Below are positions 7,571 to 64,000 of a stretch of DNA of 64,000 nucleotides, piece after piece. Within the stretch, counting starts at the first letter, position 1. Every line of letters begins with the position of its first letter. Where the stretch lies: assembly GCF_038396755.1 (NCBI RefSeq), contig NZ_CP149822.1, forward strand, positions 3,348,001-3,412,000. The letters run 5' to 3'. A program made the translations under genes and the position numbers. The stretch comes from Chitinophaga pollutisoli. GTDB taxonomy: Bacteria > Bacteroidota > Bacteroidia > Chitinophagales > Chitinophagaceae. The notes below the pieces were generated by a model that saw only the letters and a list, made by a program, of their open reading frames with translations, was not told the DNA's origin and searched no databases.

Positions 7571-8155
7571 ATGAAAGCGAAGAACATCCTCGTCATCCTC
7601 GGGCACCCGAATTCCGAAAGCTTCTGCGGCGCGCTCGCCGGCGCCTATATAAAAGGAGCCTCCGCCGCAGGGCACGCCGTTCGCGTGCTGCGCCTCGGCG
7701 AAATGGTGTTTAACCCCGACCTCCATCAGGGCTACCGCGCCCGCACCCCCTGGGAACCCGCCCTCGAAGCAGCCTGGGCCGATATCCAGTGGAGCGAACA
7801 CATGGTCTGGATCTACCCCACCTGGTGGGGAACGATCCCCGCGCTGATGAAAGGATTTATCGACCGGGTATTCCTCCCCGGAAAAGCTTTCAAATACCGC
7901 GAAAATTCCCCGCTCTGGGATAAACTCCTGAAAGGAAAATCAGCCCGGCTCATCACTACCATGGATAGTCCCCTGTGGTACAACTGGCTCATATACCACA
8001 ACGCCGGCCATCGCGCGATGAAAAACGCCACCCTTAAATTTTGTGGCGTCAAACCCGTGAAAATCACCGCCTTCGGAAAACTCCGCTGGCAACAAACACC
8101 AGCGCGGGAGAAAATGCTGTCCAAAGTGGAAAATTTAGGCGGGTTTGGCAAGTAG
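7571..8155 (+). CDS. NAD(P)H-dependent flavodoxin-fold oxidoreductase (NQO1/KefF-like)
   Basis: 194 residues of the flavodoxin_2 family: two-electron reduction of quinones or other electrophiles with FMN/FAD and NAD(P)H, cytoplasmic. Visible family blocks are ILVILGHPNSESFCGAL (flavin phosphate site), WSEHMVWIYPTWWGTIPALMKGF and the GKSARLITTMDSP strand-loop. The start is ATG 7571 (MKAKNILV), immediately after CACCTTTGTATC. An in-frame ATA at 7523 would place the palindrome and the promoter-like box inside the gene. A Crp-type regulator lies convergent downstream. True substrate unknown. Confidence 0.85.
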   Translation: MKAKNILVILGHPNSESFCGALAGAYIKGASAAGHAVRVLRLGEMVFNPDLHQGYRARTPWEPALEAAWADIQWSEHMVWIYPTWWGTIPALMKGFIDRVFLPGKAFKYRENSPLWDKLLKGKSARLITTMDSPLWYNWLIYHNAGHRAMKNATLKFCGVKPVKITAFGKLRWQQTPAREKMLSKVENLGGFGK

Positions 8156-43689: not shown

Positions 43690-44190
43690 AATTATTGTTT
43701 GTTTTCCGGTTTGGGATCGCGCGGTTCGCGGGGCTCACGCGGTTCCCTGGGCTTTTGGTCGGCGCGGGGTTCGCGGGGTGGACGGGGCTCGCCACGGTTT
43801 TCGCGTGGTTTTTGCTCGCCGCCGCGGTTATCCGGGCGCGGTTCGCGGGGTTCCCTGGGCGGGCGGGGCTCGCCACGGTTCTCGCGCGGTTTTTGTTCGC
43901 CGCCACGGTTATCCGGACGTGGCTCGCGGGGAGGGCGGTTTTCGCGTGGCTTCTGTTCGCCGCCACGGTTGTCCGGCCTGGGTTCGCGGGGTTCCCTGGG
44001 CGGACGGGGCTCGCCACGGTTTTCGCGTGGTTTCTGTTCGCCGCCACGATTATCGGGACGGGGCTCGCGCGGCTTTTGGTCGCCGCGGTTTTCCCTGGGT
44101 TTTTGTTCTCCGCCGCGGTTGTCGGGACGGGGTTCGCGGGGCTTTTGATCGCCACGCTCACGGCCTTTCTGCTCGGGGCGTCCGCTTTGC
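43690..44190 (-). repeat. Intragenic repeats encoding the RicT tail
   Basis: In-frame DNA repeats of 60-81 bp spacing encode five copies of a 16-residue RGG-containing block separated by variable PPREPRE linkers. The near-identity of the copies at DNA level suggests recent expansion or slippage. Confidence 0.75.
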
Positions 44191-60741: not shown

Positions 60742-61253
60742 ATAAAATGAACGGAGTTTTTATCAAGTAAGCCCCCTAAATTGCACTCATTGTTTGATAC
60801 GCCAGGTATCAAGGTGAGTGTTGGGAAATCAAATTGAGGGTGCAGTCATGAGGATGTTGGTGTGTTAGCCCCTGGGAGAATTATTCCGGCAAACAAGTCG
60901 GTCCCGATCAAACAACAAAGCTTTTCAAATCAGACAGTGGCCTGTAACGGGCTGCCAACACGTAGTGCGCCCACGAGTTACCGGACGTCTGCGTATGTGG
61001 CACAGGATCGATATGCAGCTGCATGATGCAAACACGTTTGTTATTCTTGAATATTTAAATATAGAAGTCATGATTATTATACAAACAAGAAAGACCCGCC
61101 TTTCACCAGTTGATTTGTTATCCCGATGAGGTGCACGGGAACTGTGTGGCAGAGGCAAATGTCTTTGCCGCACAGCCGGCGCCTGCTGCATGGCAGTAGC
61201 AGGATAGCGGCGTGGATTACAGATTTTCCTAATCATTAAAACCCCATAATCAA
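60742..61253. other. Non-coding region between kinase and RAYT-like gene
   Basis: It holds an imperfect hairpin at 60784-60820 (CACTCA...TTTGATAC / GTATCAA...TGAGTG) just after the kinase and a REP-like core at 60868-60890. Otherwise I see no gene. Confidence 0.5.
60868..60890. repeat. REP-like hairpin core upstream of the RAYT-like gene
   Basis: GCCCCTGGGAGAATTATTCCGGC resembles the array core GCCTGGGGAATCTTCCCCGGC, with several changes. It places a core copy on the other flank of the RAYT-like gene. Confidence 0.5.
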
Positions 61254-61903
61254 ATGGAATTACAAAACCCTGTGGTAGCAGGCAAGGTGACATTGATCTC
61301 CGCCTGTTGCCTCAAAAAAACTTACTGAGTGATGATCACTACAAGCAATTTGTATTGGAAGGCTTGTCCTTCATGGTTGCCCGGGAACGTATCTGGTTGT
61401 TTGGTTACTTGTTGTTGGATGGGGAATTTCACCTCATGTGCCAGCAGCGGCCGGCATGGGAGGGCAGGAATGTCCGCCAGCCCATATTGCGGCATGTTTC
61501 AAAATTGATCAAGTACGATATTCGGACGCGGGATGCGAAACAGCTGGAGTTACATCGGAGCAAGCTGAAGGACAGGATTTACCAGTTCTGGGCCAAGGAG
61601 AAGATTCGTATCGAGGTCAAGAATCGGGAAACGGCAATCAAAATGTTGAAGGCCATGCATGAAACGCCGTACCGATCGGGGATCTGTAGCAGGCATGATG
61701 CTTATTCGTATTCCAGTGCCTGGTTTTATGGGGGTGGCGAACCGCCGGAAAACTTGCCGGCGCCTGGTCTTACCAACATCGGGGAGGCATTTCCCAATGG
61801 GTACATAGAACCGGATGAGAAGGAAGGGAAATTACCCCGGATAATCATTAAAGGCCCAACCTGGTTCCGGCGTCGGTTTCCCTGGGAAGATGATCCCAAA
61901 TAA
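61254..61903 (+). CDS. REP-associated tyrosine transposase-like (RAYT/Y1_Tnp) protein, HUH motif altered, N-terminus frameshifted
   Basis: The open frame 61307-61903 gives 198 residues. Adding one A to the A7 run at 61314-61320 connects it to ATG 61254 (MELQNPVVAGKVTLISACCL) and restores the first strand of the Y1 fold (217 residues). RAYT blocks: IWLFGYLLLDGEFHLM (HUH site, with Glu58-Phe-His60 in place of His-x-His), DRIYQFW (Tyr110 near the nucleophile position, ~50 residues after the HUH), MHETPYRSGI (equivalent of IHNNPVxAG) and YSYSSAWFY. RAYTs act on REP hairpins. Loss of the first HUH His suggests a non-catalytic or domesticated copy. Confidence 0.72.
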
Positions 61904-62963
61904 TTTTCCAAAAGGCAAGGAGGAAGTCCTGCGCGCTAATTCGTTTGCGAATACAAACGACAACGGGTAAGCATTGTGCAAATAAGACAGTAGAAAGGAT
62001 TTCCTCCTTACCAGTTGCTCCGGCGCGTTTTGAATTTAGTGCGAATGGGAGAGTTATCCCCGTAAGCCCACGCATTTAAATTACTTCATGCAGTGTCGGA
62101 TGTAATCCAGCCATCATTGTGCATACTCGTTTGAGGTATTTCAACGGGAATGGGAATGGATTGTCAGCATTTTAGCGGCAGAGCCATGTAACAATGGTAG
62201 CAACGCCAGGGATTGTCTGGTCAGTGTCGCAAAGCATCACGGCAGCATAGCACTAACTCGTCTGTATTTTCGGCGGGATCGGGATTGTCATGCAGGAATG
62301 GATGCCTGGGGGATGTACAGATAGATCGTCAGGGCTGTGGTCTGGTCTGTTTTAGTAAATGTCCGAATAGAATTGCGCCAACACCATTGAGCTTATCAAC
62401 GGGAAGGAAACCCATTGTCCGTAAGTGCGTAATATTTACCGGGTAATCCATATGACATGGCGGGTTGGCATCAGAGAAGTGGAGCCGGAAAATTGAGAAG
62501 CTGCAAAAAGCAGGCGGTGATATGCATGTACAATCCGTTGAATGACACTTTCCGGCAAGTAAATGACTGTAACAAACTACCGCATTACGGATGCGACCAT
62601 TTGAAAGGCTAGAAACGAGGTGAGGACTCTTCCTCAGGCCTCAGGTTTTATGGTTTGTTCCGGGACGAGTTAACGGGTTGAGGAGCATGAACATGCGATG
62701 GCAGCAAGTGATCGAAACATCATTATGCTTTCCTGCGGGTGCTAGCGCCGGTAAGGGGAAGGTAGGTGGATGATAAACTGGGTTTTACATGTGGGTATTA
62801 GTAACCCATGCGAATGGGTAATGATATGGCCTGGAGATTCCTCTCCGGGCAGTTATCCTTCGTGCCCGAAAAGTTCTTTGAAAGTTGGTAACCGGCGAAG
62901 GTTAGGAAGTTATTTATATGGTGTACGTCTGATGAATGCAGTTTTACTGTAACAGAAATGCTT
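61904..62963. other. Gene-free tract with decayed REP-like cores
   Basis: No supported gene. Short readings at 62213-62446 and 62770-62952 have no family signs. Core-like hairpins are seen at 62621-62636 (TGAGGACTCTTCCTCA) and 62829-62850 (GGCCTGGAGATTCCTCTCCGGG). Weaker ones occur near 61996, 62043 and 62205. It looks like an older, diverged extension of the array to the right. Confidence 0.5.
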
Positions 62964-63753
62964 GCCAGGGGATTCTTCCCCAGGCAATTTTAAAACCAGG
63001 CATGCATACGGATTTGAAAGCAGTCAGGATCAGTAAATGCAATCATTTTCGTGTTGCTTGTTGAGATGATTCGTCAGGCAGTTTGATAGACAGCCATGCA
63101 AATGAATTTGAACGCAGTTTGGATAAGTGAATCCAATCATTTTGATGTTGACGGGCGACAATTCTTTTTGAGGATGTTTAAAATCAGGTATGCAGACGAA
63201 ATTGAAATTCAGTTAGGAAAGGTTAATGCAATCATTTTTCGTGTTGCCTGTTGAGATGATTCTTCAGGCAGTTTGATAGACAGCCATGCAAATGAATTTG
63301 AACGCAATTAGGATAAGTGAATACAATCATTTTACATGTTGACGGTCGGCAATTCTTTTTGAGGATGTTTAAAATCAGGTATGCAGACGAATTTGAAATT
63401 CAGTTAGGAAAGGTTAGTGCAATCCTTTTTCATGTCGCCGGTCTGGGGATCCTTTTTCAGGCTGATCAAGGCCAGGCATGCAAACGAATTTGAAACGCAG
63501 TTGAGATAGGTTAATTACATTCATTTTTCATGTTGCCGGCCTGGGGACTCTTCTTTGGGCATTTTAAATCAGGCATACGAACGAATTTGAAGCATAGTTA
63601 GGATAGGTCAAATACATACATTTTCCATATTACCGGTCTGGGGACTCCTCCCCGGGCTCTATTTCACAAGCAAATCAACCGAGGGTAGATTTTTACGGGG
63701 TTGTAGAATCTCATCGGTTAACGCAAAACAACGCCTGGGGAATCTTCCCCGGC
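62964..63753 (+). repeat. ~97-bp tandem array with REP-like hairpin in each unit
   Basis: Cores begin at about 62966, 63057, 63153, 63247, 63346, 63443, 63541, 63638 and 63735: intervals 91-99 bp. Best cores are GCCAGGGGATTCTTCCCCAG, CTGGGGACTCCTCCCCGGG and GCCTGGGGAATCTTCCCCGGC, stem-loops GGGGA/TCCCC. Between cores a conserved ~75-bp spacer contains CAGGCATGCAAACGAATTTG, then AGTTAGGATAGGT and CAATCATTTTTCATGTTG. Spacers are conserved, so it is not CRISPR. Confidence 0.82.
63057..63437 (+). repeat. Higher-order 190-bp duplication inside the array
   Basis: 63057-63246 and 63247-63437 are near copies of each other, each made of two ~95-bp units whose cores have lost the GGGGA/TCCCC stem. The shared text (TTTGATAGACAGCCATGCAA and TTCTTTTTGAGGATGTTTAA) is absent from other units. 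This shows that a dimer was amplified as one block. Confidence 0.8.
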
Positions 63754-63839
63754 AATTCTATCGTAAAAAATGCATCCCGGGAAATTGGGCGAAGACACGA
63801 TACTTTGCAATCCAAAAGGCGAATGCCGGACAATGGAAA

Positions 63840-63861
63840 GCCGGGGGATTCTTCCTCGGGC
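63840..63861 (+). repeat. Isolated REP-like core right of the array
   Basis: GCCGGGGGATTCTTCCTCGG then GC: same hairpin, but its flanks no longer match the spacer. A further partial core (CCTGGG) begins at 63993 at the window edge. 63862-64000 shows no gene. Confidence 0.6.
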
Positions 63862-64000
63862 CGTTTAAGCTCCGGGCCCAAAACGTTACGATGTGCACAG
63901 CGAAAACTATTTGAAGCGCTGAATATTGTGGCCTTGTTTCTACCGGAGATTACCGGTAAAGTTCCTGAGGTCGACAAATCGGGAGCATTACGCCTGGGCT

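Follow-up and report, generated by a model that had tools for sequence, protein, structure and literature searches.

This report concerns the 3' end of a 64,000-nucleotide stretch of the Chitinophaga pollutisoli genome (contig NZ_CP149822.1, positions 3,348,001 to 3,412,000 of the forward strand; the genome is a single contig of 6.08 Mb), referred to below as the window. Here a histidine-kinase gene is followed by a 198-aa open frame at 61307-61903, which is related to TnpAREP or RAYT, the tyrosine transposase associated with repetitive extragenic palindromic (REP) sequences, and then by non-coding DNA in which hairpins and a tandem repeat of 95-97 bp are found. An earlier note on this DNA had described a RAYT-like gene followed by GGGGA/TCCCC hairpins, and both are indeed present, with six hairpins of 23.6-30.4 bits inside the window. 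We propose, and give this an even chance, that the gene product is a domesticated, non-cutting TnpAREP whose ligand is the adjoining hairpin array, most likely in RNA form; both binding and transcription are what we infer. A putatively dead transposase that is inherited beside its own conserved row of hairpins suggests that a DNA-spreading enzyme has been turned into a dedicated hairpin-binding partner.

The first HUH histidine is replaced (by E, Q, Y, S or A) in all 20 proteins from the locus, none of which carries the HuH motif NH[LIV]H as defined in the consulted part of PMC6006769. The second histidine is retained in 17 of the 20, and the catalytic tyrosine, whose column was set by alignment with Y115 of 4er8, gives way to A, T, N, Q, I, L, F or M in every one, with YIH[QN]NP missing throughout. 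Among the 69 outgroup proteins checked, three of which were too short to judge, both histidines are kept in 63 of 66 (one is absent in L086, L095 and L103) and the tyrosine in 66 of 66. The locus proteins show the Y1 HUH fold with the conserved W and the C-terminal SS; the HuH-Y distance is 74-76 residues in the C. pollutisoli protein, the median of subclass 2.6 being 82 aa. Purifying selection acts on the gene (dN/dS 0.067-0.166), which is predicted from its residues to be catalytically dead. Since the fold and conserved residues are kept and the tyrosine for the 5'-phosphotyrosine intermediate is absent, the former transposase probably binds hairpins without cutting them. Alignment A3 and the residue counts leave out the broken gene of G064 and the loci L031-L033. 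The gene of G064 (L047) is split in two, and several of its neighbours match partially; the genome is rated 65% complete, and sequencing error may be the cause. L031, L032 and L033 (G071, G022 and G046) hold a second, non-syntenic RAYT-like family in which HxH is kept and the tyrosine column reads M, N or L, possibly another Tyr-less branch.

The homology, like the residue loss and the selection, was computed directly. A search of PDB sequences with A3, whose outgroup comprises 29 rows hand-chosen from the 69, ranked TnpAREP first (E 0.0012); with A1 it came fourth (E 0.14), below three spurious rows. Foldseek placed 4er8 third (E 0.32, probability 0.82), and VIA-align, run on the Foldseek candidates, gave a clear structural match to it. 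The NF047646 model (REP_Tyr_transpos) scored 24-53 bits, under its curated cut-off of 80 bits, in nine proteins, a set that left out the window's own frame (25 bits and E 1.4e-5 for P0001), and a Pfam scan of the C. pollutisoli protein gave no significant match. In a tree of 80 loci less 11 locus duplicates and three short rows, the locus clade is nested within outgroup rows, nearly all from Bacteroidota, in which the motifs are retained; its sister branch is L062/L063/L076, with a support of only 93/63. The hairpin-bearing loci do not form one clade, the hairpinless L029 (very long branch of 3.53, placement unsure) falling among them. The gene appears to be a Bacteroidota-type TnpAREP of subclass 2.6 or RAYT group 5, as assigned by motif and phylum and not by the authors' own profile; the group numbering follows the consulted part of PMC6006769. 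A separate Y1 transposase acting in trans was also looked for, with no PF01797 match at E <=0.001, and the A1 profile matched only the gene itself.

The hairpin, taken as a 20-mer, is of the type GGGGA-NTCT-TCCCC. With 83 sites as its seed and a cut-off of 12 bits, a weight matrix found 100 hairpins at 15 of 19 Chitinophaga loci, 1-18 per locus, the highest score in 251,600 background positions (taken from the 19 loci at distances of over 3 kb upstream of the gene) being 8.6 bits. The loci are those of C. pollutisoli, G072, G042, G006, G036, G011, G009, G002, G028, G056, G026, G055, G027, G025 and G064; G011 has 10 hairpins and G042 has 15. All 100 hairpins lie 3' of the gene and in its sense orientation, ten antisense matches overlapping sense ones, and no inverted pairs of the bacterial interspersed mosaic element (BIME) type occur among them. 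None of these 15 loci has an upstream hairpin of at least 12 bits, and the upstream copy claimed earlier at 60868 scores -0.3 bits. Past the window end the array continues for about 1.5 kb, with six further hairpins of at least 12 bits, to genome position ~3413481.

Their concentration at the locus, like their orientation, was computed directly. When the whole genome was searched for the core, as had been suggested, with up to three mismatches allowed, 16 forward and five reverse matches were obtained, far above the reversed control (1 + 2). Fourteen of the 21, all forward, fall within 2.9 kb (3410619-3413481); the other seven are scattered, with 2-3 mismatches each, the reversed control yielding three. 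In 79 genomes of the genus, one per species, a pattern allowed one mismatch at most matched in 26 and reached three or more copies in only seven. Each of these seven carries the gene, and their matches, 47 in all, lie at the locus with one exception. The hairpins are therefore nearly confined to this locus, dispersed REPs in C. pollutisoli being ruled out by the concentration of matches, and their confinement beside the gene makes them natural candidates for its binding target. The inference that a RAYT cut and spread them is not supported, because the catalytic residues are lost and the hairpins hardly occur outside the locus, run one way and lie on one side. A lone hairpin-like match of 15.2 bits is found at 7863-7882 of the window, distant from the array.

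All 76 distinct hairpins have G7, A8, T10, T13 and C14 without exception, and one of these five positions belongs to the loop. In addition, covariation computed directly from the alignment gave 43 cells changed on both sides of a pair, as compared with 15.1 in shuffles (none of 500 as high), and a score of 0.329 vs 0.203, slid structures scoring worse. Among imperfect pairs, G.T outnumbers A.C by 67 to 6 overall, and by 48 to 3 once pair 3 is excluded. The search pattern permitted both at pairs 2 and 6, and there the counts are 19 and 0. This directly computed bias indicates that it is the gene-sense strand that folds, in the form of RNA or of single-stranded DNA. After the 20-mer, T makes up 73% at +5 and 72% at +6 (89 copies); before it, G is enriched at -1 (1.07 bits) and weakly at -2 (0.46 bits; 75 copies, four positions), and the tetranucleotide GT[AG]G does not stand at the 5' foot. 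An Rfam 15 scan of L010:13500-20000 for a known RNA family returned none at gathering score, with two sub-threshold microRNA matches (E 0.14 and 0.16).

Each unit consists of about 45 nt of unit-specific sequence, a GC-rich hairpin with the invariant core and a T-rich tail. The regular ~97-bp array described earlier does exist as a tandem repeat with a period of 95-97 bp (6.5-6.8 copies, 69% matches), the result of local multiplication of unit C. The array as a whole is no plain satellite: most units differ, and they are individually conserved between species, standing in orthologous order and each with its own shared preceding sequence (Table 1). Ahead of unit C, for instance, each of the seven species with big arrays carries the 27 nt AGGATAGGTCAAATACATACATTTTCC, never with more than one difference. 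In three close pairs of species, identity on the 5' side is 93-96% at -40 to -11 and 87% at -10 to -1, the hairpin itself reaching 93-95%, as against 58-78% at -160 to -51 and 66-73% at +30 to +79. Computed directly over 40 nt on either side, conservation is better 5' for 32 of 35 hairpins, worse for one and equal for two (Wilcoxon p 1e-6, the units not being independent). A second clade (G028, G056 and G026) shows the same bias more weakly, 56-83% vs 45-69%. The alignment of the seven species is noisy outside the conserved blocks; in the RNAalifold consensus most 5' segments are unpaired, and they have no common motif at fixed positions. Sense-strand wobbles, the T-rich tail and the conserved, mostly unpaired 5' segments together make RNA more likely than DNA as the form in which the array would act.

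Table 1. Gene and array features in the window
Feature	Position	Strand	Basis or remark
TnpAREP/RAYT-derived gene	61307..61903	+	198 aa open frame; HUH = E-F-H; Y115-equivalent = A (KAMHETP)
Probable real 5' end (ATG 61255; N-terminal strand in a different frame)	61255..61318	+	comparison with L012, P0001
Weak first hairpin GGTGAGGACTCTTCCTCAGG	62619..62638	+	6.1 bits; aligns with hairpins of 5 other species
Unit A conserved 5' segment	62785..62829	+	conservation between species
Unit A hairpin	62830..62849	+	weight matrix
Unit B conserved 5' segment	62920..62964	+	conservation between species
Unit B hairpin (start of the array in the earlier note)	62965..62984	+	weight matrix
95-97 bp tandem array, amplified unit C, several copies with decayed hairpins	62989..63649	+	repeat search
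Decayed hairpin within tandem array	63442..63461	+	11.6 bits
Hairpin, tandem copy of unit C	63540..63559	+	weight matrix
Unit C conserved 5' segment	63592..63636	+	strong conservation, 7 species
Unit C hairpin	63637..63656	+	weight matrix, alignment
Unit D conserved 5' segment	63689..63733	+	conservation between species
Unit D hairpin	63734..63753	+	weight matrix, alignment
Unit E conserved 5' segment	63796..63840	+	conservation between species
Unit E hairpin	63841..63860	+	weight matrix

The location of the gene is conserved as well, which was again computed directly. A single-sequence search found it in 19 of the 79 genomes; a profile search raised this to 22, the three additional matches being weak (E 2e-12 to 1e-6). 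Several shared neighbours lie within ~10 kb of the gene at all 19 loci, in a rearranged block at four of them (L048-L051). Downstream of the array, pyrH on the other strand is followed by tsf and rpsB (names assigned by reading the sequences). The kinase, pyrH, tsf and rpsB are matched at none of the 69 outgroup loci (E 1e-20), two of which have one other window gene each in common. No relative was found in the viral contigs, plasmids and phages searched, and carriage by a phage or plasmid was dismissed.

Ordinary relatives offer a comparison. At 28 of the 69 outgroup loci (in the range L060-L131, including Mucilaginibacter and Dyadobacter) hairpins of the form T[TC]GG[TC]GNNNNC[AG]CC[AG]A occur within 1.5 kb of the gene, at 23 of them on both sides, with a density of 0.575/kb near the gene vs 0.012/kb far from it; at the other 41 none lies within 1.5 kb. 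An exact search for TTGGTGNNNNCACCAA in 244 genomes of the family gave matches in 130, at most 31 copies in one, the reversed control giving 0-3 copies except for one genome with seven. The C. pollutisoli genome holds no copy of this TTGGTG-type REP. Such palindromes beside the gene are a possible signature of subclass 2.6-type REPtrons, and their frequent presence on both sides makes a two-sided REPtron look ancestral and the Chitinophaga locus derived. These outgroup loci fit subclass 2.6, from Bacteroidetes, which the consulted part of PMC6006769 describes as having 'atypical secondary structures' and copies elsewhere in the genome; its REPs, too, are without the GT[AG]G foot. The Chitinophaga system resembles this subclass in homology, fold, W and SS motifs and the hairpins adjoining the gene, but differs in that the HuH and Y motifs are lost, the hairpin is another one (GGGGA-NTCT-TCCCC), its copies keep to one side, one orientation and one locus instead of recurring elsewhere in the genome, and the 5' flanks are conserved and unit-specific. 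In the same source, as far as consulted, Quentin et al. (2018) excluded sequences without core motifs as probably non-functional.

The E. coli REPtron (subclass 2.2, group 2) differs in its GTAG, inverted BIME pairs, dispersed REPs and catalytic tyrosine, none of which the locus has; the high copy number and dispersal between genes of REP, BIME and REPIN sequences are likewise missing. IS200/IS605 TnpA with its end hairpins differs in that here no element ends or signs of transposition are seen, the active site is predicted to be dead and inheritance is vertical. Large bacterial ribonucleoproteins such as OLE RNA combine a long conserved non-coding region with the gene of a candidate nucleic-acid-binding protein. 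The Chitinophaga locus shares the long conserved non-coding region adjoining a gene, but its array is made of modular hairpin units and matches no Rfam family at gathering score. Among the titles and abstract openings listed in a literature search, none describes this gene and hairpin array.

In the mechanism we propose, a Bacteroidota-type TnpAREP would have been domesticated in a Chitinophaga lineage and fixed near pyrH-tsf-rpsB, would have lost cleavage together with the first HUH histidine and the catalytic tyrosine, and would have been retained for hairpin binding, its target being the private array 3' of its own gene. The array would be transcribed from the gene's strand and act as RNA in a ribonucleoprotein, either as one long transcript or as several small RNAs with a common 3' hairpin handle. 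In a bolder version the array would encode small RNAs, passed on vertically, that combine individual 5' recognition segments with the common 3' handle; bound by the inactivated HUH transposase, they would form a multi-guide ribonucleoprotein which evolved from a RAYT and regulates host genes. This is a tentative idea that we would not expect to hold.

Several points weigh against our proposal. The number of pairs showing two-sided change (4) does not exceed the shuffle mean (3.5), the hairpin copies are related by descent so that the counts are not independent events, and a strand bias in mutation could account for some of the G.T excess. The conserved 5' segments would be compatible with DNA binding, too, and when 1.2 kb, roughly two fifths of the array, was searched for genome targets, the best match outside the array had E 0.28. 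Five of the 15 hairpin loci have a single hairpin. The earlier note had counted it against its own reading if the array were missing from relatives that keep the gene in place; this is the case at four of the 19 loci, the most divergent ones (L048-L051), where this hairpin type is absent. Finally, an A7 run near 61312-61318 disrupts the N-terminal frame of the C. pollutisoli copy, relatives having an uninterrupted frame from the equivalent of ATG 61255 (intact in L012 and in protein P0001); the break may be a recent frameshift, an assembly error or the result of slippage. Many of the proportions depend on few related species.

Among the alternatives, we take most seriously, while regarding it as unlikely, a function at the DNA level: single-stranded hairpin DNA would be the ligand of the dead TnpAREP, and the two would make a fixed nucleoprotein site between converging genes, without any role for RNA. 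Strand specificity is compatible with such a substrate, the neighbourhood is fixed in 19 loci, and the E. coli TnpAREP processes single-stranded REP DNA according to the consulted part of PMC8266576. On the other hand, unit-specific 5' conservation and T-rich tails resemble RNA 3' ends. In DNA, moreover, G.T pairs are a weaker asset. The hairpins could also act in cis on RNA, independently of the protein, either as a series of weak intrinsic terminators or by stabilising the 3' ends of small RNAs or of the mRNA of the gene. A GC-rich stem with a T-rich tail would suit this, and a terminator scan of L011:600-3700 gave seven hits vs 3.5 (sd 1.7) in shuffles, five on the gene strand, two of these overlapping; but terminators do not need five invariant positions, one in the loop, as many as 18 hairpins stand in series, and the gene accompanies the hairpins in all seven genomes with at least three matches, which makes this quite improbable.

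That the locus is a decaying REPtron, a RAYT remnant drifting with its leftover REPs, we consider more doubtful still. The lost catalytic residues, the frameshift in the C. pollutisoli copy and the decayed hairpins in the 97-bp repeats would be expected from decay; the low dN/dS, the orthology of units between species, the covariation and the contrast in close pairs between the 5' and 3' flanks would not. Least credible of all, and close to being discarded, is a RAYT that remains active with unusual catalytic residues and still mobilises the hairpins: the second HUH histidine is mostly kept, but the tyrosine is replaced in every locus protein, hardly any copies exist elsewhere in C. pollutisoli or the genus, and the order of units is orthologous between species.

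To our knowledge, RAYTs are termed domesticated transposases and their role in the host is largely open. Here a RAYT-like sequence without the core motifs has been conserved in synteny and is accompanied by a hairpin array that is itself conserved, so that a non-cutting host function can be tested directly in a bacterium amenable to culture. Should the array act as RNA, it would illustrate how a transposase of single-strand DNA could give rise to an RNA-binding partner.

Some further repeats were observed. Just past the window, at L011:2754-3275, six tandem 87-bp units without a hairpin lie between two hairpin units of the array; by eye, the 87-bp unit resembles the sequence upstream of the next hairpin. 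L049 (G071) has a syntenic, divergent orthologue in which HUH is fully lost, and carries an array of three units of another hairpin type (GCTGGCCCGTAAGCCGGC, to which an outer stem is added) at +661, +936 and +1205 from the gene match, likewise 3' of the gene. Elsewhere in the window, GC-rich overlapping tandem repeats of 60-141 bp occupy positions 43763-44156.
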